NCBI GenBank assembly: GCA_021793675.1
Contig: JAJYSG010000002.1
Coordinates: 1-64,000 of the forward strand
Direction of reading: 5' to 3'
Source of the DNA: Actinomycetes bacterium
Lineage (GTDB): Bacteria; Actinomycetota; Actinomycetes; Actinomycetales; Cellulomonadaceae
Length of the DNA: 64,000 nt
This document shows positions 49,531-62,808 of the stretch, one piece after another. Position 1 is the first letter of the stretch. Each line of letters begins with the position of its first letter. Made by a program: the position numbers and the translations under genes. The notes beneath the pieces were generated by a model. That model was given only the letters and a program-made list of their open reading frames with translations. It ran no database searches and was not told the DNA's origin.

Positions 49531-49603
49531 GGGGCTGTGGCGCAGCTGGTAGCGCGTCTCGTTCGCAACGAGAAGGTCGCCGGTTCGAATCCGGTCAGCT
49601 CCA
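49531..49603 (+). tRNA. tRNA-Ala (anticodon CGC)
   Basis: GGGGCTG acceptor, D-arm GCGCAGCTGGTAGCGC, anticodon arm TCTCG-TTCGCAA-CGAGA (CGC), T-arm GCCGGTTCGAATCCGGT, CAGCTCCA. Confidence 0.95.
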
Positions 49604-49610
49604 CTCCGGT

Positions 49611-49654
49611 AGGGCCTCTGACTAGGGCATGTGCCCAGGTCAGAGGCCCTTTCT
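49611..49654 (+). terminator. Rho-independent terminator downstream of tRNA-Ala
   Basis: AGGGCCTCTGAC ... GTCAGAGGCCCT followed by TTCT. Confidence 0.85.
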
Positions 49655-49696
49655 GTTGTCCGCGCAGGCCGTCACAACCGGTCGGAGAACGCCATG

Positions 49697-49720
49697 CGGA
49701 CACGGATTCGGACACGGATT
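49697..49720 (+). repeat. 12-bp perfect tandem direct repeat
   Basis: CGGACACGGATT x2 between tRNA 3' end and the xis-like gene. Confidence 0.8.
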
Positions 49721-49849
49721 CTCCCTGTGCTACTCACCGCTGCAGCACGCCATCGAGGCGTTGTCGCACATGGGCCAGCCATGAAGACGCACAGGGCCGG
49801 CGCGGCCCCGGTGAACAAGAACTGGCTAGCTGCCGCACATGAGGCCGGC

Positions 49850-50146
49850 ATGGAGAACAACGCCAACACGCCCGCCGACGACAGCCACGCCGCGGAGGCC
49901 CACGTCCGCCGGCCCGGCGACAGCGAAGCCATGTGGAGCATCGAAGAGCTCGTCAGCTACCTCGGCGTGCCCTACGAGACGTTCCGCACCTGGCGTCGCA
50001 ACGGGCAGGGCCCCGCGCCCGAGTACCGCTTCGGGCGCCTACTGCGATACACGGAGGAGGACGTCGCCGGGTGGATTGCCTCCGGCTGCGGCACGGAGCC
50101 GCCCCGGCGCGAGCCGGTGGACGCAAACGCCGCCTACGGCTGGTGA
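49850..50146 (+). CDS. Excisionase-like helix-turn-helix protein
   Basis: MWSIEELVSYLGVPYETFRTWRRNGQGPAPEYRFGRLLRYTEEDVAGWIAS; upstream of integrase. Confidence 0.8.
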   Translation: MENNANTPADDSHAAEAHVRRPGDSEAMWSIEELVSYLGVPYETFRTWRRNGQGPAPEYRFGRLLRYTEEDVAGWIASGCGTEPPRREPVDANAAYGW

Positions 50147-50149
50147 CCC

Positions 50150-51448
50150 ATGTCGCGGCGCTCCCTCGAACCCGGTCAGCACGGCCGAGTCTTCTTCATG
50201 ACCACTCCCGCCGGAACGGTGAAGGCACGGACCCGGCTCCGGCTCCGGAACGGCGAGCTCGAGGTCGTGACCTACACCGCCGTCACCACCGAGCTCGCTG
50301 AACGCGGGCTCCAGGGGGAGATCGACAAGCGACTCAACGCGGCGCCCGGCTCCGCCGACCTTGGGCCGCGCGACCCCCTCGCCAAGGCCGCCCGCCAGTG
50401 GGTGGAGCAGGCGCGCATCGAGTCCCAGTGGCCGGACCCGCCGCTGCGGCCGCAGACCGTCGACGAGTACGAGGACCTGCTGAGGCTGTACGTCATCCCG
50501 GCCCTCGGCAAGCACCGGCTCGACACCATCACGCCGCCGGTCGTTCAGGGCTGGGTGAACTCGATGGTGGCTCGCGGACAGAAGCCCGACGCCAAGCACC
50601 GGATGCTCGTGACCACCGTGCGGGCCCACAGCGTGCTCCACCAGGTTCTCGAGCGGGCCGTCAACCTGCATGCGATGCTCGACAACCCGGCGAGCCATAC
50701 CCGGCTACCTCGGCAGCCGAAACCGAACCCCGTCGCGTTGACCATCGAAGGCACGTGGCGGCTGCGGCGCGCGGTCCGCGAGTGGGAGACCTCCCGCATC
50801 GGGCGGCCCGGCCCCCGACCCACCGGCAACCTGCCGGCCATCATCGACGTCTGCCTCGGCACCGGACTGCGCATCGGTGAGGTCATGGCGCTGCGCTGGG
50901 GGCAGGTCAACCTCGCCCTCGACGACGAAGGAATCGCCACAATCGCCGTTCGGACGACGCTCGTGGATGTCAAGGGCCAAGGCACCGTCGACCAGGGCGA
51001 CACCAAGACGACAGCCAGTAGGCGGGCCATCATCCTGCCGAGGTTCGTCGTGGAGGCGCTCACCCGGCTGCGTCCGCCCAACCCCGCGAACCACGACCCC
51101 GTGTTCCCGTCCCGCACCTTCAAGGACGGTCGCAACGTCGGCGAACCGCAGACGCCTGCGAACGTGCGCCGGACGCTGCGTTCCGCACTTGAGATGGCCG
51201 AGCTGACCGGACTCGCCCACCCGCACAAGCTCCGCCACACAGTCGCGACCCTCGTGCAGCGGGACCGCGGCCTCGAGGCCGCCGCCGCACTCCTCGGGCA
51301 CCAGCTGCGGGGCGTGACAGGACACAACTACGTCGAACGCATCTCCGTGGCGCCGGACGTGAGCGATGTGCTGCAGGTCTTCATCGAGGCGTCGGAGGCA
51401 GCCGAGCGAGCTGCCTTGGAGTGGACACCCGACCGCGCCGAAACCTGA
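50150..51448 (+). CDS. Tyrosine site-specific recombinase (integrase)
   Basis: C-terminal catalytic residues in GTGLRIGEVMALRWGQV, HKLRHTVATLV, LGHQLRGVTGHNYV. Confidence 0.95.
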   Translation: MSRRSLEPGQHGRVFFMTTPAGTVKARTRLRLRNGELEVVTYTAVTTELAERGLQGEIDKRLNAAPGSADLGPRDPLAKAARQWVEQARIESQWPDPPLRPQTVDEYEDLLRLYVIPALGKHRLDTITPPVVQGWVNSMVARGQKPDAKHRMLVTTVRAHSVLHQVLERAVNLHAMLDNPASHTRLPRQPKPNPVALTIEGTWRLRRAVREWETSRIGRPGPRPTGNLPAIIDVCLGTGLRIGEVMALRWGQVNLALDDEGIATIAVRTTLVDVKGQGTVDQGDTKTTASRRAIILPRFVVEALTRLRPPNPANHDPVFPSRTFKDGRNVGEPQTPANVRRTLRSALEMAELTGLAHPHKLRHTVATLVQRDRGLEAAAALLGHQLRGVTGHNYVERISVAPDVSDVLQVFIEASEAAERAALEWTPDRAET

Positions 51449-51799: not shown

Positions 51800-52501
51800 C
51801 TACCGTCGGTTGGCTTCGATGACGCGCCGAACCGTCTGCGGCGAGCACCCCATCACACGTGCGATCCCCGCGAGGGTGGCGCCGGGCTCGGTCGCGAGCT
51901 TCCTGACGTGGTCGCGCTGGTCGATCGTCAACGCTGGCGGCCGCCCCAGCCGCACGCCGGCGGCGCGACGCTGCGCGAGCGCTTCCCGGGTGCGGAGCCG
52001 GATCGCGGAACGTTCTTGGTTCGCTGCCCACGCGAGGACGGCAAGGACGATCTCACCCAGCGGCGTGCCGTCGACTCGGATCCCTTCGGTGAGCAGGACG
52101 AGGGTGATGCCTCGCCGATGGAGATCGTCGGCGACGTCGAAGGTCTCGCGGATCCCGCCGCGGGAGACGCGATCGACCTTCCAGACGACGATCTCGTCGC
52201 CGGGCTTCGCGACCTGGAGCAGCTGCGTCCAGCCGTCCCGGTCCGCGGGCGGCACGTCGCTGTGGACGCGGTCGCGGAACACGCGCGAGACGCCGGCCAG
52301 CTCAAGAGCGCGGGCCTGCGGCTCCTCGTCTTGGCGGCCGTCCGACAGCGAAACCCGCGCGTACCCCCACCGCATGGCCGGGCGATCTGGAGTTTCGGCG
52401 TGGGTTTCTGGCTGGGCGTTCGTGCTGGTCGCGGTCATCGTCACCGGTGCCTCCGAAATCGGTCGTTTCCGGCTGGTCATCTGAGCGTCATTAGCACGCA
52501 T
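51800..52501 (-). CDS. Serine recombinase (resolvase/invertase family)
   Basis: MRWGYARVSLSDGRQDEE, VVWKVDRVSRGGIRETF, C-terminal HTH LAGIARVMGCSPQTVRRVIEANRR. Confidence 0.92.
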   Translation of the reverse strand: MRANDAQMTSRKRPISEAPVTMTATSTNAQPETHAETPDRPAMRWGYARVSLSDGRQDEEPQARALELAGVSRVFRDRVHSDVPPADRDGWTQLLQVAKPGDEIVVWKVDRVSRGGIRETFDVADDLHRRGITLVLLTEGIRVDGTPLGEIVLAVLAWAANQERSAIRLRTREALAQRRAAGVRLGRPPALTIDQRDHVRKLATEPGATLAGIARVMGCSPQTVRRVIEANRR

Positions 52502-52926: not shown

Positions 52927-53454
52927 GTGCCTGCGAGACTCGATGACGTGGTCTGGACCACCCTCGGGAGCCTCTCGATCGGCTCCCTCCTGACCCTCGT
53001 CGTCAAGGCTCAGATCGACCGCCGAACCGAGAACCGGGCCACGAGACGGGCGCTCTACGTCGACCTCCTCAAAGTTCTGACGGGGCACCTCGCATTCATG
53101 CGAGGCGCCGTCTACGACCGCACCCTCAAGCCGACCGGTGTCTCCCAGGAGCACGTCGACAGCGTGGATGCACTGCTCAAGGTCGACGCGACACCAGCTG
53201 TGAGAGACAAGGCGGAGGTTTGCTTCGAGCTGATGAACAGGTTCGGCCTGGCCCGAGAGAACGCCGTCCCGATCGAACGCGAGGACGGCGGCTTCTACGT
53301 CTGGATGTTCGACCAGGTCCAGGACCGGGAAGGTGAAGACCTCGAGTTCGTGATGAGGGTCTGGCTTGCCGGGGTCGTGGACAGGTTCGACGCGGCAGTT
53401 GACGCACTGGCGGCTCAGGTCCGCAGGGAGCTCCACGGGGCAAGAAGCCGCTGA
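52927..53454 (+). CDS. Hypothetical membrane-anchored protein
   Basis: GTG start; VVWTTLGSLSIGSLLTLVVKAQIDRRTENRATRRALYVDLLKVL...; start uncertain. Confidence 0.6.
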   Translation: MPARLDDVVWTTLGSLSIGSLLTLVVKAQIDRRTENRATRRALYVDLLKVLTGHLAFMRGAVYDRTLKPTGVSQEHVDSVDALLKVDATPAVRDKAEVCFELMNRFGLARENAVPIEREDGGFYVWMFDQVQDREGEDLEFVMRVWLAGVVDRFDAAVDALAAQVRRELHGARSR

Positions 53455-53461
53455 CGATCGA

Positions 53462-53500
53462 GCCTGCCGGGTCGGTCCCGCTACGACCGGCCCGGCAGGC
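53462..53500. terminator. Hairpin between convergent genes
   Basis: GCCTGCCGGG ... CCCGGCAGGC. Confidence 0.6.
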
Positions 53501-53554
53501 CATCTGATCCACCTTGCGCCGCGGCCACCACTCCACGGCGCAGGGAGGATGTCA

Positions 53555-56500
53555 TCAGCGCGACGCGAACCGACGCCGCAGTGCCACCGCCCCGACACCC
53601 GCCGCGATGAAGAGTGCGGCGAGCCCGGCAAGCGGCCAGGCGTCCGACGAGCCCGTGCACCCGACGCCGGGCTTCCCGTCGCACCCGATAGCCACCACGG
53701 TCGGAACCGTGGGGTCGGTCGGAGGGGCTGCCGCCACGGTCGGCGTAGCGATCGGCGTCGGGCCTTGGGCTGGCGCCGTCGGCGTCGGGGTGGCTGGCGG
53801 GTCAGGCACCGTCGTCGGCCGGTCGAGCGGGTTCGCGATCGCCGGAGTGACAGTCACTCGGATGTTCGCGGGTGCGCCGATGATGCCGTCGCTCGTTACC
53901 GCGACGAACGGCAGCAGGCTCTGCTGGACGACGGGGGACATCAGCCGGACGGCCCGGGAGCCTGCCATGGTGGCCGTGCCGTCGAATGTGGCGTCGCCGA
54001 GCGGGTCGTCGATCTGTGCCATGTCGGCGCTCGAGGACGGCATTGCGGCGTCATCAGCGACCGGCACCGGCACGTACGGCCCACCGCCGGGTTCGGTGCC
54101 ATTCAGGAGCGTGTCGCCCCGCTCGACCCACCAAGTTCCGCCCACGCTGGCCGCCAGACTGGAGTGCGCGATGTAGTCGTCGGAGGCGGTTCGCAGGTCG
54201 GCGACTGTGCCCCACAGCACGGGGTCGAGGAGGTCGTCCGTGGTGGCCCAGCTGCCGGCCTGGACGGTGATGCTGTGGTCGGCTACCACTGGCCCGAAGA
54301 CGGTGACGTACACGGTGACGGGGACGCGCTCACCGACGCCGTAGCCATCGAGCTGCTGGTCGGACAGGAAGGTGAACGCTGTCGTTCCGGTGAACCCGGC
54401 GTCCGGAGTGAAGATGAACGAGCTGCCGCTCCCGGTCACCGTGCCCGGGAGCTCGACCCCGTCAGGCTGGTAGGTCCAAGTGAGGTCCATTGCACCCGGG
54501 ATCGCGTCGGCGCCAAACACGGGCGAGACGGTTACGGGCTCCCCGGCCCATGCGAAGTACCAGGGCCAGACCTGGTGCACTCGCGTGCTCGTGGACACCG
54601 GGATGACGACGATCGTGGTCGTGTATGTCACGTCGTCCTGGCCGGCCCCGGCGATGCGCCACGTGACGGTTAGCGTGCCAGACGGGATCGACGGCGAGTA
54701 GGCGAGGCGGCCCGCCGGCGTGACCGTCACGTCGGTCGCCGTCGTCGACTCGTTGGTGGTGTCGTCGGTCTCGGTCGCGTCACCGACGAGCTGGACGACA
54801 TCACCGTCCGGAAGTCGTCCGCCGACGAGGTTCCAGCCGCCGGAACCAGCGGCGCTGACGGAGCCGATCGAGCCATCTCGCGCTTCCCACATCGCGGCCG
54901 GCGGCGTGACGTTCACAGTCAGGCTGACCGGGTCGGCGTTCGGCGACCAGTATGTGAGCGTCGGTGCGGCGCCGAGGAAGCCCGTGGTCGGCTCGTCGAA
55001 CATCACGTCGACGTCACCGGTGGCGCAGTTGGACCCGGCATAGCCAGAGGAACTCGTCGGCATTTCGGACCACGAGATCACGGCAACTCCGGCCGACAGA
55101 TCGCAGATCGGGAGCGACGAGAGCGGGAACTCTACGGAGACCATGTTCGCGTCGGCGGTGCTCAGTTCCGCCTGCACGGTGACGGTCGCGCTGATCGCGT
55201 TGGTTGCCGCCGCCGGTTCGTTCACCAGCACCATGAATGTCCCGACGCGGCTGCCCCCGGCGAAGATCGTCACCGTGTCCGTGCCGACGAAACCGGGGGC
55301 GGGCGTGTAGAGGACGGCACCCGTGTCCTCCACAACCGCGCTGGAACCAGCCCACGTCGGTAGCGCGATCACGGCCGTGACCCCGTCTGTCGCGACGAGT
55401 TGTGCGACGGACGTCCCGCCAACGTGGAGTCCCGTGATGCGAACCGGGGTGTCGACGGTGGTCACCTGACGGTCAGCGGCGCTTGCCATGCCGTCGGAGC
55501 CGGCCGGACGGAGAGCGACACCGTCGCTCGGGTACACGACCGGGTCAGTAGTCGGCGGGTCCGTTGGCTCGGTGGCTGCTTCGTCACCGGGGTCGGGGCA
55601 ACCGTCAGAGACGACGTACAGGGTCATCGTCGCGGTGCTTGACGCGCCAGCCTCGGTGGTCACCGACCACGGGAAGGTGGCTGCGCAGGTGCCGTCGTCG
55701 GGGACGGTGAATCCCCACGTGCCGGTGTGGAAGTCGGCAACGTCGGCGTCGGCGAACGCGTCGGCGTCGGTGTCGGGCTCCCCCACAGACCACGAGCTCG
55801 CGGTGCCACCAGCCAGATTGGTGTGGTCGTTGAGGTCGCCGGAGAGGAAGTCGCCCGGCGCGCCGGTGACGTCGAAGCTCTCTGCGAGAGGTAGCACGTG
55901 GCTGTCGGTCACGTGCACCCTGATGGTGCCGAGGCCCGACCATTGGCCGTCGCCCTGGCGACCGACCCACGCGAGCGTGTAGTCGCCGGCCGCGGCCGGG
56001 TGCAGGGTCAGGTCGCCGGAGTCGTCAATGGCGACACCGAGTTGTGCGGCGATTGAGTCGTCACCGGTCAGGTTGCCGGCGCCGGCCGTGGTCGCGGGCG
56101 CGCCTGTGACGGCGATCGCCTGCAGCCACGTTCCGTCGCCTGCCCAGAAGGCGTTGCTCAGCTGCCAGACGTCGGTGTCGACCCCGGCACCCACGGTGAC
56201 GGACAGGCCCGAAGCGACGGGCGCGCCGATGGAGTCCCCGGACCCGTCAGGGTTCGGGTCCGAGACGTCGACGGTCAGCGACGCATCGTTGGAGACCAGC
56301 TGGTCCACACCGTCGGAAGTACCGACCGCGTTCCACGTCAGGCTGAACTCGCCGGCGACGGTCGGCGTGATCGTCAGCTGGCCGGTCGTGTCGTCGAACG
56401 ATGCATCGAGCGCGGTCAGCACCGAGTCGTCGCCGGAGAGCACTCCGGTGCCGTCGTCGGTCGCGTCTGCGCCGCCCGCGAGGTGGAACCCGACGCGCAT

Positions 56501-56692
56501 CAGGCCGCCCCACTGCGTCGTCAGGCCGTCGTCGAGGTTGATGGTCGATGTCTCGCCGGTCGTGGCGGAGACGTTCATGCCGGTGGCCGTCGGCGGGTCA
56601 GCCGCGGCCGCGGAGGTGGCGCCGGCGATCGCACCGACGACGACGAGCGCCGCAGCGGCAACCGCGGCGGCGAGCTTGCGGAAGCTGGACAT
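53555..56692 (-). CDS. Large secreted, C-terminally anchored surface protein with Ig-like/cadherin-like repeats
   Basis: Signal peptide MSSFRKLAAAVAAAALVVVGAIAGATSAAAA; repeats such as YTPAPGFVGTDTVTIFAGG and FTPDAGFTGTTAFTFLS; C-terminal WPLAGLAALFIAAGVGAVALRRRFASR. Confidence 0.85.
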   Translation of the reverse strand: MSSFRKLAAAVAAAALVVVGAIAGATSAAAADPPTATGMNVSATTGETSTINLDDGLTTQWGGLMRVGFHLAGGADATDDGTGVLSGDDSVLTALDASFDDTTGQLTITPTVAGEFSLTWNAVGTSDGVDQLVSNDASLTVDVSDPNPDGSGDSIGAPVASGLSVTVGAGVDTDVWQLSNAFWAGDGTWLQAIAVTGAPATTAGAGNLTGDDSIAAQLGVAIDDSGDLTLHPAAAGDYTLAWVGRQGDGQWSGLGTIRVHVTDSHVLPLAESFDVTGAPGDFLSGDLNDHTNLAGGTASSWSVGEPDTDADAFADADVADFHTGTWGFTVPDDGTCAATFPWSVTTEAGASSTATMTLYVVSDGCPDPGDEAATEPTDPPTTDPVVYPSDGVALRPAGSDGMASAADRQVTTVDTPVRITGLHVGGTSVAQLVATDGVTAVIALPTWAGSSAVVEDTGAVLYTPAPGFVGTDTVTIFAGGSRVGTFMVLVNEPAAATNAISATVTVQAELSTADANMVSVEFPLSSLPICDLSAGVAVISWSEMPTSSSGYAGSNCATGDVDVMFDEPTTGFLGAAPTLTYWSPNADPVSLTVNVTPPAAMWEARDGSIGSVSAAGSGGWNLVGGRLPDGDVVQLVGDATETDDTTNESTTATDVTVTPAGRLAYSPSIPSGTLTVTWRIAGAGQDDVTYTTTIVVIPVSTSTRVHQVWPWYFAWAGEPVTVSPVFGADAIPGAMDLTWTYQPDGVELPGTVTGSGSSFIFTPDAGFTGTTAFTFLSDQQLDGYGVGERVPVTVYVTVFGPVVADHSITVQAGSWATTDDLLDPVLWGTVADLRTASDDYIAHSSLAASVGGTWWVERGDTLLNGTEPGGGPYVPVPVADDAAMPSSSADMAQIDDPLGDATFDGTATMAGSRAVRLMSPVVQQSLLPFVAVTSDGIIGAPANIRVTVTPAIANPLDRPTTVPDPPATPTPTAPAQGPTPIATPTVAAAPPTDPTVPTVVAIGCDGKPGVGCTGSSDAWPLAGLAALFIAAGVGAVALRRRFASR

Positions 56693-56792
56693 GGTGGTGG
56701 TCCTCCTTCGAGGGTTGGGCGGGCAAGAAGAAGGCCGCCAACCGCACTCATGTGCGGCGGACGGCCAGGGCTCTTTCCGGCGCCGAGGCCGG

Positions 56793-57971
56793 TCAGGCTG
56801 TTGGGGACGCCAAGAGGACGAGCGGTGCGTCCGTGATGTGCGACGGGCCGTCGGCCGTGACGGGCACGACCAGAGGCTCGGTGGGGCTCGCGATCGCCTG
56901 GGCGATGCGCTGCGCGAAGCTCGGGTCGTCGTGCTGCACAACCCGCGTAATGGTGAACTGCCGGTTCCCGAACTTGACCGTCGGGGCTGGGCTGACCGTC
57001 GGGTCTACCGCTGCTCCGCCGAGCGAGGGCACTACCGCGGCACCCGGGCAGGCCGTCTTGTCGGTCGCGGTTGCCAGGTCGCACGCACGCAGTAGGAGGG
57101 CGAGGGTCTTCGATGCGCCGGCGTCCTCGTTGATGAGCATCGCGTGCGAGTCACCCATCGCATCCAGAGGCCCGCTGAGATCGAATAGGGCGCCCTGCTG
57201 GGAACCGACCTGCGATGAGGCGTAGCTGACGCCCACCCCGTCGAGGGCAGCGGCGAGGAGATGCCTAGTGTCGCTGTCGGCGGTGCGCCAGCTGATCTGC
57301 GCATCGGGACCCGCGACGAGCGCGGTGGGCGCCGGGACCGGGTAAGCCTCGTAGGAGGAGCGGACCTTCTTCGACGCGATCCAGACGCAGTAGTCCGCAA
57401 GCCGGGCCGAGGGTCCTTCGGGGGTCACGATGAGGACGTTGTCAGCGTCGGCGAGCGCGCCACTGACCGTCTTCACGAAGTCCTCGTCGCTGTCCGCGCA
57501 GACGAAGTCGGTGATCGCGGCAGTCTGCCCCCCGAGGGTGACCCACGACGTCGGACCGAGCTTCTGGCTTGAGTACAGCTTGGCGAAGTCGCCCGGGCAG
57601 CTCGCCTGGTCGTCGGTGTCGCCGCCGCACTTGTGCAGTGCGATGACGGTGGCCTTCCAGCCGAGCGCGGAACCATCGACCCGAACGGCTGGTGCCGACA
57701 TGGGGAAGGTCTTGGTCCCCTTGTCGACCTTCACGGTGGCGGTGACCGACACCGTCACCGGTTGCTTGACGTAGTCGGGCACGAACGTGGTCTTGCCGGT
57801 CGTCGGGTCTGTGACCTGGCGAGTCGACCCCGGTTCGATGTCGTGCAGCACCAGCTGGTCGGCAGTCGTCGCAGCCGCGGCGCTCTCGTTGGCCTTGTGG
57901 CCGCAGGCCGCCAACGGGACGACGAGTGTGACGATCGCCACCGCGGCGACGATCCGCGTGAGCCTGGACAT
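56793..57971 (-). CDS. Secreted lipoprotein, unknown function
   Basis: Lipobox LAACG; 392 aa, no family recognised. Confidence 0.8.
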   Translation of the reverse strand: MSRLTRIVAAVAIVTLVVPLAACGHKANESAAAATTADQLVLHDIEPGSTRQVTDPTTGKTTFVPDYVKQPVTVSVTATVKVDKGTKTFPMSAPAVRVDGSALGWKATVIALHKCGGDTDDQASCPGDFAKLYSSQKLGPTSWVTLGGQTAAITDFVCADSDEDFVKTVSGALADADNVLIVTPEGPSARLADYCVWIASKKVRSSYEAYPVPAPTALVAGPDAQISWRTADSDTRHLLAAALDGVGVSYASSQVGSQQGALFDLSGPLDAMGDSHAMLINEDAGASKTLALLLRACDLATATDKTACPGAAVVPSLGGAAVDPTVSPAPTVKFGNRQFTITRVVQHDDPSFAQRIAQAIASPTEPLVVPVTADGPSHITDAPLVLLASPTA

Positions 57972-57992
57972 GGGGCAGCCTCCTGCAGGGGC

Positions 57993-58328
57993 CTAGAAGC
58001 TCGACGGGTCCGGGGTGACGGAAGTCGAGTCGCCGGTGACGCTGCTGATCGACGACTTCACGTCGCTCACCTGGGCCTGCACCCAGTGCAGCCCCAGGGG
58101 GATGACAACTGCGAGAGTGATCGTGACGACGAGCACGCCAAGACCGCCGGTGACGGTCCAGAAGTTCGGGAGCCAGAAGTCGGGCGACGACAGCCGCGCC
58201 CGCCACTTGCTCACCGGCCGGGCCGGCTTGGCGTCACCGCCCGCCAGCACGGTGAAGCCGGTCGGCGGGGTCACGGCCGGCTGGCCGGAGGAGTCACTGG
58301 ACATGGGGGCCTCCTTTTCGTCGTTCAT
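57993..58328 (-). CDS. Single-TM hypothetical protein
   Basis: PNFWTVTGGLGVLVVTITLAVVIPLGLHWVQAQVSDV; start could be 58304. Confidence 0.7.
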   Translation of the reverse strand: MNDEKEAPMSSDSSGQPAVTPPTGFTVLAGGDAKPARPVSKWRARLSSPDFWLPNFWTVTGGLGVLVVTITLAVVIPLGLHWVQAQVSDVKSSISSVTGDSTSVTPDPSSF

Positions 58329-58338
58329 GTGCGGACCG

Positions 58339-58884
58339 TCACGACGCCGAACCGCAGCCGCGGAAAGTGACCGACTGGACCGGCCCGCCGGCCACCGACA
58401 CCTCCACCGTCGGTGCGCCTGCGGCCACAGCGGCTTCGTCCAATGGGAGAGCGACGAGCTCGGTGCCCGATGCCGTCTTCATGACGAGCCAGTCCGTCGA
58501 CATCCAGTCCCCGGACAGCACGACGTCGGAGCCGGGGCCGCGGGTCAGGTGCGCGATCACCGCGGTGTCCGACACGACGTCAACCAGCCCGTCGAACGAC
58601 ACCGTCAGCGGCGCGCCCGCTCGAACTTCCGACGGCCCGCACGTGTCCGCCTGCGTCACGGCCGCAGGCTTGGACACGACCGGGGTCGGAGTCGCGTGCG
58701 GGATTGGCAGGTAGTCGGTCGCGACCTTCGCGTCGACGACGCGCTGATGCTCCGCGGCAGCAGCACGCGCCGGAGCAGCCGCCCCGTACGCGGCAATCTC
58801 ACCGACAGCCAGGCCGGCAACAGCCAGCAGAACCAGGCCCGCCGTGACCGACACGGCCCAGGCGCTCCTCGAGAACTTCCTCAT
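58339..58884 (-). CDS. Secreted/membrane-anchored hypothetical protein
   Basis: MRKFSRSAWAVSVTAGLVLLAVAGLAVGEIAAYGAAAPARA N-terminal TM; 181 aa. Confidence 0.7.
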   Translation of the reverse strand: MRKFSRSAWAVSVTAGLVLLAVAGLAVGEIAAYGAAAPARAAAAEHQRVVDAKVATDYLPIPHATPTPVVSKPAAVTQADTCGPSEVRAGAPLTVSFDGLVDVVSDTAVIAHLTRGPGSDVVLSGDWMSTDWLVMKTASGTELVALPLDEAAVAAGAPTVEVSVAGGPVQSVTFRGCGSAS

Positions 58885-58923: not shown

Positions 58924-58949
58924 GGCCCGCCTCCGAATGGAGGCGGGCC
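58924..58949 (-). terminator. Rho-independent-type terminator of the ATPase operon
   Basis: Minus strand GGCCCGCCTCC-ATTC-GGAGGCGGGCC followed by TTCCTGTT. Confidence 0.75.
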
Positions 58950-58976: not shown

Positions 58977-59063
58977 TCAGGCGGCATGGGCTCTGGCGCC
59001 GGCGACCCGCAACCGAACAGGCGGCGCGTCATCGACAACCATCAGCTCGGGTTCCGGAGTCAC
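58977..59063 (-). CDS. Candidate 28-aa microprotein, coupled to the upstream ATPase
   Basis: VTPEPELMVVDDAPPVRLRVAGARAHAA; GTG overlaps the ATPase stop (ATGTGA) and the ORF ends just before the terminator. Confidence 0.4.
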   Translation of the reverse strand: MTPEPELMVVDDAPPVRLRVAGARAHAA

Positions 59064-59674
59064 ATTGCGAACTCGTCGAGCGTGACCTCGATCGGCCAGA
59101 ACGCTTCGGACGCGGGGCGCAGGTCGATCGCGACGCCTTGACCCCGCCTCCGAGGAGCCAAGTCTTCTGGAACCGGCAGCCAGACGGCCGCCGCTTGGAC
59201 GGCGAACCAGTCCGTGTCGCCCATGACGACCCGGGCTGGGAAGAAGTCCTCGAGCCAACGGTCGAGCTTCCAGAACGACGTCGTGAGCACCACGGAGCTT
59301 GTCCCTTCCACAAGGTTGAGCAGCTCAAGGAGCGAGGCCCAAGAGTCCGCGTACTCCCCGGACCACTCCGGGTGCGCAAGCAGCTCCGCGTGCTCCACGA
59401 CGACCAGGCGGCGAACGCCGGGGTCGTGCTTGACCTCCTTGACCAGCTGCCGCAGGGCCGCCGGCAGATCGTCCTGGTGCCAGCGCGCACCGACACGATC
59501 CGCGACGTCGGACAGCCCGCACCAGGGGTCGAAGACGTCAACCTGGTCGAACTCACCGTCCGCGGCGAGCAACATCGCCTTCACCAGGGTCGACTTGCCA
59601 CCGCCGGTCGGCCCGAGCACCATCGTCGACGCCCACGGCAGAGCAGGTGCGATCCGCGGTCGAACGTCACTCAC
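59060..59674 (-). CDS. Compact FtsK-like P-loop ATPase
   Basis: VLGPTGGGKSTLVKAMLLAA, VDVFDPWCGLSD, VRRLVVVEHAELL; GTG overlaps upstream stop. Confidence 0.7.
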   Translation of the reverse strand: MSDVRPRIAPALPWASTMVLGPTGGGKSTLVKAMLLAADGEFDQVDVFDPWCGLSDVADRVGARWHQDDLPAALRQLVKEVKHDPGVRRLVVVEHAELLAHPEWSGEYADSWASLLELLNLVEGTSSVVLTTSFWKLDRWLEDFFPARVVMGDTDWFAVQAAAVWLPVPEDLAPRRRGQGVAIDLRPASEAFWPIEVTLDEFAM

Positions 59675-61260: not shown

Positions 61261-62166
61261 TCACAGACCTCCCGTCAGATCGAGAACCTGGCCGTCATCC
61301 GGCAGTGAGGTGGCGGCCAACACCGGCGTAAACCCGGCAGCCAGACCCCCCGACGCCTTGAGGGCGGCCCGCCGCTGGGCTGTCGCTGCATCGGCCCAGC
61401 CGAACGTCACCGTGCGTGCCGGACCCGCATCGAGGAACGACACGGTCCGGTCCGGCTGCAAGCCGACGAGCGCTTCCTCGAGCTTGTCCTTGTCGAGCGC
61501 CCCCGCCTTCCACGGCACAGGGCCCACCGTCACCCACCCGTCCGCATCGACCCGGACCGTGCCGGCCAGGTCGACATCAGCGACCCCGAACAGCTTCATC
61601 AGCCACCCGAGGTTGTCCACGTGCGCCGCGTTCGCCGCCTGAGTCCAGCCGCGCAGCAGCGTTCCGGTGCGAGCCGCTGGGACGGCGACGCCGAGCACCC
61701 AGCCGGCCCATGTGAGCCAGAGCGCGGTGTAGTCGACGGCGATGTTCGCGAGGTACAGGCCCCAGCCGGCGAGCGGGAGCGCGAGCAGCATCGACGCGCA
61801 CACAGCCCAGCCGCGGCCCGACCCGATGGTCCGGAACCACTCTCGCGAGAAGCGGCCGAACGGGAGCCGCAGGCCCGCCGCCGCGCAGATACGCCGCGCC
61901 AGCCAGAACGGGCCCATCGCGGCGCTGAACGCCGCCAGCGGGAAGCAGACGATGCCGGCCCAAGCAACCTGAGTTCCGAGCATGGCCATGGCGAGCGCCT
62001 CGAGCAGCGACGCGTGCGCGACCGCACCCACCCACCGGCGCTTCTGGCCGCGCTGGTCCAGCTCGCCCGTCTCCTTGTCGAGGCGAATCGAGTCGCCGAA
62101 CGGGATCGTGACGCCGGCGAGCACTGCCAGCACAGCGAGAAGAACGACCACGACGGTCTGGGTCAC
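61261..62166 (-). CDS. Multi-TM membrane protein with C-terminal soluble domain
   Basis: VTQTVVVVLLAVLAVLAGVTIPFGDSIRLDKETGELD...; 302 aa; one base before FtsK-like gene. Confidence 0.75.
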   Translation of the reverse strand: MTQTVVVVLLAVLAVLAGVTIPFGDSIRLDKETGELDQRGQKRRWVGAVAHASLLEALAMAMLGTQVAWAGIVCFPLAAFSAAMGPFWLARRICAAAGLRLPFGRFSREWFRTIGSGRGWAVCASMLLALPLAGWGLYLANIAVDYTALWLTWAGWVLGVAVPAARTGTLLRGWTQAANAAHVDNLGWLMKLFGVADVDLAGTVRVDADGWVTVGPVPWKAGALDKDKLEEALVGLQPDRTVSFLDAGPARTVTFGWADAATAQRRAALKASGGLAAGFTPVLAATSLPDDGQVLDLTGGL

Positions 62167-62456
62167 CGGACACCTCCACCGCTCCGGCCGCCCAGGACGA
62201 ACGCGACGACCACGACCAAGACCGCGGCGACCACCATTAGCCAGCCGACGGCGATGGTTCCTTCCACGGCGATCCACACGACGAGCCCCACCACGGCCAG
62301 GACCGGCAGACCCGCGGCGAGCAGCACACCACGGTGACGAGCCACCCAGGGGGGGACAGCCGCAGCAGCACCACGGCGCGTGCCAGCGAACACGGCACGG
62401 GCGCGCGACGGCGCCGGGGCGGTGCCCGGCTCGCGGCCGGCAGACATCGACGACAT
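62163..62456 (-). CDS. Small two-TM hypothetical protein
   Basis: RHRGVLLAAGLPVLAVVGLVVWIAVEGTIAVGWLMVVAAVLVVVVAFVLGG; overlaps next start. Confidence 0.7.
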   Translation of the reverse strand: MSSMSAGREPGTAPAPSRARAVFAGTRRGAAAAVPPWVARHRGVLLAAGLPVLAVVGLVVWIAVEGTIAVGWLMVVAAVLVVVVAFVLGGRSGGGVR

Positions 62457-62808
62457 CGGGTGAGCTCCCTTCACGGGGTCTATGTGCGGCAGACGCATGG
62501 TTGAGGCCAGCCGGGGCCGCGGCAGGAGAGATCACGGCCCCGGCGGGTAAGGGGTGCCCGTGCGCCGCGTGCTCGAAAGCTCCAGGGCAGGGGAGTCGGC
62601 GCACCGGGACGGAAGGGATCGTCACGGAAGCGACGCGCGGGCAGATCAGGGGGTGCGGAGGTGTTCCCGGCAGAGGTGAGGCCGGGCCCGGCATCCGCGG
62701 ACGCGAACCCGCGGGGTACAGCCGGACCCGGCCTCGTGCAGCTGCCGGTCCACGTCAGGGCGCGCACCATCGCCCTCGTGTTACACGTGAGTCTACATGA
62801 TGTGATTA

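Follow-up and report, generated by a model that had tools for sequence, protein, structure and literature searches.

How donor and recipient meet is poorly known for mobile elements with an FtsK/TraB-type motor; in Streptomyces, transfer occurs within the mycelium. The question is raised by a cassette of four consecutive minus-strand genes, A to D, which encode only envelope proteins and adjoin an FtsK-type transfer ATPase on an integrative element of a bacterium of the Cellulomonadaceae. The stretch analysed (the window) comprises the first 64,000 bases of the 76,524-base contig JAJYSG010000002.1, part of an incomplete metagenome-assembled genome (MAG) of 1.87 Mb and 62% completeness. The answer offered here, with slightly more doubt than confidence, is that the cassette is the mating-contact module of an actinobacterial integrative element with an FtsK-type motor, in which protein A would be a transmembrane (TM)-anchored analogue of the adhesins of Gram-positive conjugation. 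Its proteins may promote the adherence of donor to recipient cells during DNA transfer. What carries this reading is the company kept by relatives of the ATPase: surface-contact genes adjoin them in most independent cases.

Four envelope genes beside an FtsK-type ATPase

The four open reading frames lie where the first-pass annotation had placed them, inside the element recognised by its integrase and tRNA gene (Table 1), and encode envelope features only: a signal peptide, C-terminal TM segment and RRR tail in A, a lipoprotein in B, a single TM segment in C, and a secreted or N-terminally anchored protein in D. The GC fraction at third codon positions is 0.84-0.92 versus 0.53-0.58 at second positions, a pattern missing from opposite-strand frames, and A to D are therefore real genes. 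D, C and B are closely spaced. Both the hairpin ahead of D and the one separating B from A are possible terminators or attenuators, so that co-transcription of FtsK with D, C, B and A is unproven and the 'operon' claimed on first reading is not established.

The start of gene A is preceded by AAGGAGG, and its product, with only two lysines in 1045 residues, begins with a Sec signal peptide (MSSFRKLAAAVAAAALVVV...) and ends with a TM segment (residues 1020-1038) followed by RRRFASR. It contains a tandem repeat (35-150 and 151-268) whose score was equalled by none of 100 shuffles. The Ig/cadherin-like character previously ascribed to the repeats survives as a weak call, the sole domain signal being Big_9 at E = 0.015, below the cut-off. 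The C-terminus is shaped like a sorting signal with VGCTG replacing LxxTG; NCBIfam sorting-signal models stayed below their cut-offs, with a sortase-type C-terminus at E = 7e-4. Protein B is internally duplicated (Smith-Waterman score 64, reached by 2 of 300 shuffles), and gene C more likely starts at its second ATG, which AAGGAGG precedes, so that its product would have 103 residues instead of 111. AlphaFold2 models made without an alignment were uninformative (predicted local distance difference test, pLDDT, 35 for A and 42 for B).

Neighbours of the FtsK relatives

Because the cassette itself is without relatives, the neighbourhoods of FtsK relatives were examined instead. The family alignment used for this has six members with 26-29% identity to the window protein. 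Such relatives are rare, being found in 14 of 395 genomes of the order and, by the same alignment, in 4 of 150 genomes of the family and 4 of 147 of another family, while 15 plasmids were matched with the FtsK of genome G239 as query; a search of genome contigs with the window FtsK itself returned no relative. Twelve independent groups were read, each genus or plasmid type counting once, with the window excluded and partial or differently built matches (G195, G214, G1248, G1288) left out of the count.

In three of the twelve, a large C-terminally anchored surface protein of sortase type, non-homologous to A, is encoded 3-8 kb downstream of the FtsK relative and on its strand: a 949-residue LAKTG protein at 3.0 kb in G307, a 751-residue LKNTG protein at 4.9 kb in G239, which also has its own sortase (PF04203, 4e-25), and a 1103-residue LAATG protein at 8 kb in G249. 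Gene A likewise lies on the FtsK strand, 3.0 kb downstream. The integrase of G239 is moreover homologous to that of the window (4e-31). The modules of G239 and G307, which come from two families of the order, are homologous and syntenic, consisting of FtsK, a protein of 170/172 residues, a protein of 374/405 residues with an N-terminal TM segment, and the adhesin (z-scores 83, 7 and 27). There the surface protein thus travels with FtsK, and no other observation argues as strongly that the two belong together. In the window, as in both modules, an FtsK relative, small proteins, an N-terminally anchored protein and a large surface protein with a C-terminal anchor are encoded on the same strand; the two adhesins differ from A in carrying L-x-x-T-G signals, and their homology to each other does not extend to A.

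A further five groups (Curtobacterium, Glaciihabitans, Arthrobacter/Pseudarthrobacter, G310 and G1143) have prepilins or type IV pilus genes close by, the G310 prepilin carrying PKD and DUF285 domains. Two groups resemble type IV secretion systems (T4SS), with an AAA_10/VirB4-like ATPase and two N-terminally anchored proteins behind the FtsK relative in G343/G061/G242 and TM proteins in the same position in G1124; one group has no such module, and the twelfth, the Bifidobacterium megaplasmids, was placed in no neighbour class. Among loci read after the rule had been set, G1143 has a prepilin and no anchored protein, and G1124 has neither, its contig ending 4.7 kb downstream. Against a background of 400 kb from the same genomes and other sequence, cut into 10-kb same-strand windows, of which 5.1% held an anchored protein by rule and 2.6% an anchored protein bearing a sortase motif, three groups in twelve correspond to p = 0.02 and about 0.003, respectively, on this crude comparison; with post hoc rules, a small sample and a crude gene caller, the enrichment is supportive and not decisive. 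No prepilin occurred in the 400 kb. The linkage to the transfer ATPase in other elements, proposed as a check by the first-pass annotation, is split: the four genes were found nowhere else, while a big surface protein with a C-terminal anchor does recur downstream of FtsK relatives, its sequence being unrelated.

Some further features of these loci deserve mention. On megaplasmids of Curtobacterium, Glaciihabitans and Arthrobacter type (150-600 kb, typed as non-mobilizable), FtsK relatives lie within or beside type IV pilus clusters, and a pilus-assisted FtsK transfer system may have been overlooked on them. Near the FtsK relatives of G310 (L064:6433-7800) and a Glaciihabitans plasmid (L019:7153-8628), prepilin-type or N-terminally anchored proteins bear large DUF285/BspA-like domains and are possible pilus-borne adhesins. 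Many consecutive proteins beside the FtsK relatives of G1143 (L122) and G310 (L064, L065) start with a motif of the type RxxVPAGVxxGGQFAT/ARxEA, similar to PxGQPxGGQFA in G239; such a motif may serve as a shared signal for the sorting or transfer of element proteins. In G1288 (L126:15390-17027), another FtsK-bearing element, a sortase-type surface protein of the LAETG family is encoded upstream of a VirB4-like ATPase.

A proposed role in mating contact and its alternatives

As a mating-contact module, the cassette would operate as follows. Protein A would be held in the membrane by its C-terminal TM segment and basic tail, with its long beta-rich ectodomain reaching through the cell wall and binding the recipient surface, while lipoprotein B and the small membrane proteins C and D would hold or position A at the membrane near the motor. 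The DNA would be passed across the membrane by the multi-TM protein encoded at 61261-62166 and the FtsK hexamer. On these terms the element would transfer, with A as its presumed adhesin, B to D as assistants of A and the whole cassette in the service of transfer.

In Gram-positive conjugation, mating cells are usually brought together by adhesins (PMC12857230). Like A, PrgB, the aggregation substance of pCF10 (PMC12857230), is a large, secreted, C-terminally anchored surface protein of a transfer region, and the holding of mating cells by A is proposed. However, PrgB serves a relaxase/T4SS system and has a polymer adhesin domain and an LPxTG signal, whereas A is without both and stands beside an FtsK-type motor. 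With the TraB/Spd systems of Streptomyces and of actinomycete integrative and conjugative elements (AICEs; PMC12857230, PMC3218068), the window shares an FtsK/SpoIIIE ATPase, a tyrosine integrase at a tRNA gene, small membrane proteins nearby and the lack of a recognised relaxase (no profile match among the element proteins tested). Descriptions of those systems include Spd membrane proteins but neither a large surface protein nor an adhesin, whereas the cassette encodes a large surface protein. A linear plasmid of Cutibacterium acnes combines an FtsK-domain protein and Flp/Tad pili with a surface-protein locus that includes a class E sortase, its authors leaving a link to conjugation open (PMC5696575); it differs in its VirB4 and TcpC-like proteins and in what appears to be another kind of surface locus. 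The experimentally conjugative pMP7017 of Bifidobacterium breve (PMC10832533) carries a relative of the window FtsK beside a second FtsK, with no C-terminally anchored surface protein by rule within the 40-kb stretch read.

The cassette would thus work like an adhesin-assisted conjugation module whose class membership is not settled. Protein A has VGCTG in place of LPxTG or LAxTG and no Pfam or NCBIfam domain above cut-off that would correspond to the polymer adhesin domain of PrgB, and the window FtsK scores 45 bits in the Streptomyces TraB model NF041214 (cut-off 800). As for the marks of an AICE (PMC3218068), there is an integrase with a tRNA site (PF00589, E = 1e-14, tRNA-Ala adjoining) and an FtsK/SpoIIIE transfer protein (PF01580, 51.8 bits, cut-off 24); the replication candidates, of 893 and 573 residues, match no Pfam or NCBIfam model, whether RepAM (PF12307), Prim-Pol (PF09250) or any other, in libraries without a RepSA model.

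Several points weigh against the mating-contact reading. The L-x-x-T-G signal is absent from A, and a search of the host genome (62% complete) revealed no sortase, which makes membrane anchoring of A the simpler reading. For A to D, no credible relatives emerged from Pfam, PHROGs, NCBIfam, PADLOC, the PDB (sequence searches with A and B), plasmids (no close relative of A or of the TM protein) or samples of 150-400 genomes (none of B, the TM protein or the 293-residue protein encoded upstream of FtsK), so that the parallel with adhesin modules is architectural only. Those weak matches (E from 1e-4 to 1e-2) that were examined further were rejected as relatives, having unrelated contexts in the three neighbourhoods read. 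Hairpins lie between FtsK and the cassette and between B and A. The attR site was found neither on the contig nor in the MAG (62% complete), no Rep of known type could be recognised, and transfer of the element is presumed. One group of FtsK relatives (G256, G336, G371, G386) has no surface module within reach, and in the chance estimate the window sizes and test rules were fixed after the first cases had been seen, with a simple gene caller and TM scan.

The main rival, itself unlikely, is that the four genes are cargo, a host-useful surface or biofilm adhesin module that lies next to the FtsK operon by coincidence and takes no part in transfer. The hairpin before D allows separate transcription, A to D are orphans, as cargo genes often are, and they have the FtsK block on one side and the integrase end of the element on the other. 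The conservation of a comparable adhesin in G239 and G307 together with FtsK and two intervening genes is, however, not expected of loose cargo, and surface modules beside FtsK relatives are commoner than in the background. It is more improbable that D, C, B and perhaps A belong to the translocation channel as its envelope components, with a role comparable to that of the Streptomyces plasmid Spd membrane proteins or of VirB8/TcpC-like parts, with A as a wall-spanning piece and not an adhesin. The position of the cassette directly after FtsK, an ATPase and a multi-TM protein would suit this, as would the frequent location of Spd genes in transcriptional units with traB (PMC12857230) and the channel-like neighbours in G343 (AAA_10/VirB4-like) and G1124 (TM proteins after FtsK). 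Yet the topology of A, with its long acidic ectodomain, Pro/Thr stalk and C-terminal TM segment, is that of a surface protein, and none of the channel profiles, VirB8 and TcpC included, was matched in profile searches. To our knowledge, there is no Spd protein with a 1000-residue ectodomain. A structural channel role for B to D is possible.

Lipoproteins and surface proteins act as exclusion factors on several elements, and an OLD-family gene also lies on this one; entry or surface exclusion, or masking of a phage receptor, whereby the surface proteins would block a second element or a phage, is nevertheless very improbable, with no specific sequence, positional or comparative evidence for it and with adhesins and pili as the recurrent neighbours of FtsK relatives. 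Of the four roles between which the first-pass annotation had left the choice, adhesin and mating stabiliser are those best supported by the FtsK relatives, exclusion factor and phage decoy being without evidence.

Beyond the window, a doubtful extension of the mating-contact reading concerns Micrococcales and related groups: in these, one family of soluble transfer ATPases of FtsK type would be accompanied by interchangeable contact modules (a sortase-anchored adhesin, a type IV pilus, or a TM-anchored Ig-like protein with a lipoprotein), which would give non-mycelial FtsK/TraB-like transfer a dedicated mating-pair device. If swappable surface modules are indeed paired with motors in unicellular actinobacteria, they would provide a testable answer to how double-stranded DNA transfer starts in them, along with candidate genes in the modules of G239 and G307 type.

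The integrative element and its other genes

The tRNA-Ala gene, the integrase, the helix-turn-helix (HTH) protein and a fall in GC from 0.75 to 0.69 at the tRNA gene together mark an integrative element, with the cassette inside the lower-GC segment. Genomes of the host genus are about 4 Mb in size, and the chromosomal part of the window has about 75% GC.

Table 1. Positions of the cassette and of neighbouring features in the window
Feature	Position	Strand	Evidence
tRNA-Ala (CGC), probable attachment site	49531..49604	+	ARAGORN; integrase directly behind
HTH_17/MerR-like small protein, Xis candidate	49631..50146	+	PF12728, E = 6e-7
Tyrosine integrase	50150..51448	+	PF00589, E = 1e-14; 545 bp behind tRNA-Ala
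Serine resolvase/invertase	51800..52501	-	PF00239, E = 3e-25
Strong hairpin between A and convergent gene, probable terminator	53450..53560	-	fold z = -6.4, 0/200 shuffles
Gene A, 1045 aa: signal peptide, acidic Thr/Asp-rich beta-type ectodomain, Pro/Thr stalk, VGCTG, C-terminal TM, RRRFASR tail	53555..56692	-	
Terminator/attenuator-like hairpin between B and A, 14-bp stem then TTCTTCTT	56700..56780	-	z = -2.2
Gene B, 392-aa lipoprotein (LAAC lipobox), two copies of C...CPG alpha/beta unit	56793..57971	-	
Gene C, 103-aa single-TM protein (TM 62-80); 111 aa if started at 58328	57993..58304	-	
Gene D, 181 aa: signal peptide or N-terminal TM anchor (10-28), small extracellular domain	58339..58884	-	
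11-bp GC-rich hairpin with U-rich tail, 40 bases upstream of D	58924..58949	-	
P-loop ATPase, 204 aa, GTG start overlapping FtsK stop	59060..59674	-	
Soluble FtsK/SpoIIIE-family ATPase, 530 aa	59667..61259	-	PF01580, E = 9e-14; family alignment
Membrane protein, about 3-4 TM, orphan	61261..62166	-	
Small single-TM protein	62163..62498	-	
Orphan soluble protein, 293 aa	62809..63690	-	

The block upstream of the cassette, described on first reading as 'dual-FtsK', holds one FtsK only; its neighbour is an unclassified P-loop ATPase (14.6 bits in FtsK_SpoIIIE, cut-off 24). A primase-helicase-like protein is also encoded upstream on the FtsK strand, a label given by eye only and confirmed by no profile. 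Type VII secretion was considered for the motor, EccCa being among the best ATPase matches (47.8 bits, cut-off 509), and was rejected because no Ecc partner profile matched the neighbouring genes. A phage origin was also considered; matches to phage FtsK proteins span at most about 60% of the protein.

The part of the element beyond the window holds a probable defence gene for an OLD/GajA/AriA-like ATPase with a TOPRIM domain (contig 69334-71250, plus strand) and a VapBC-like pair of a PIN toxin and a MazE/AbrB-type antitoxin (contig 72251-73053, minus strand). Near the contig end, a 573-residue protein (VNLPSDYDPVRHATALERLM..., contig 74615-76336, minus strand) has a C-terminus resembling the N-terminal domain of the FtsK family (VKLPxGFDPxRHxxALE), with a score reached by none of 1000 shuffles for four relatives and by 15 of 1000 for the window's own FtsK. 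It is a probable replication or regulatory protein that matches no Pfam model and shares a small domain with the transfer ATPase.

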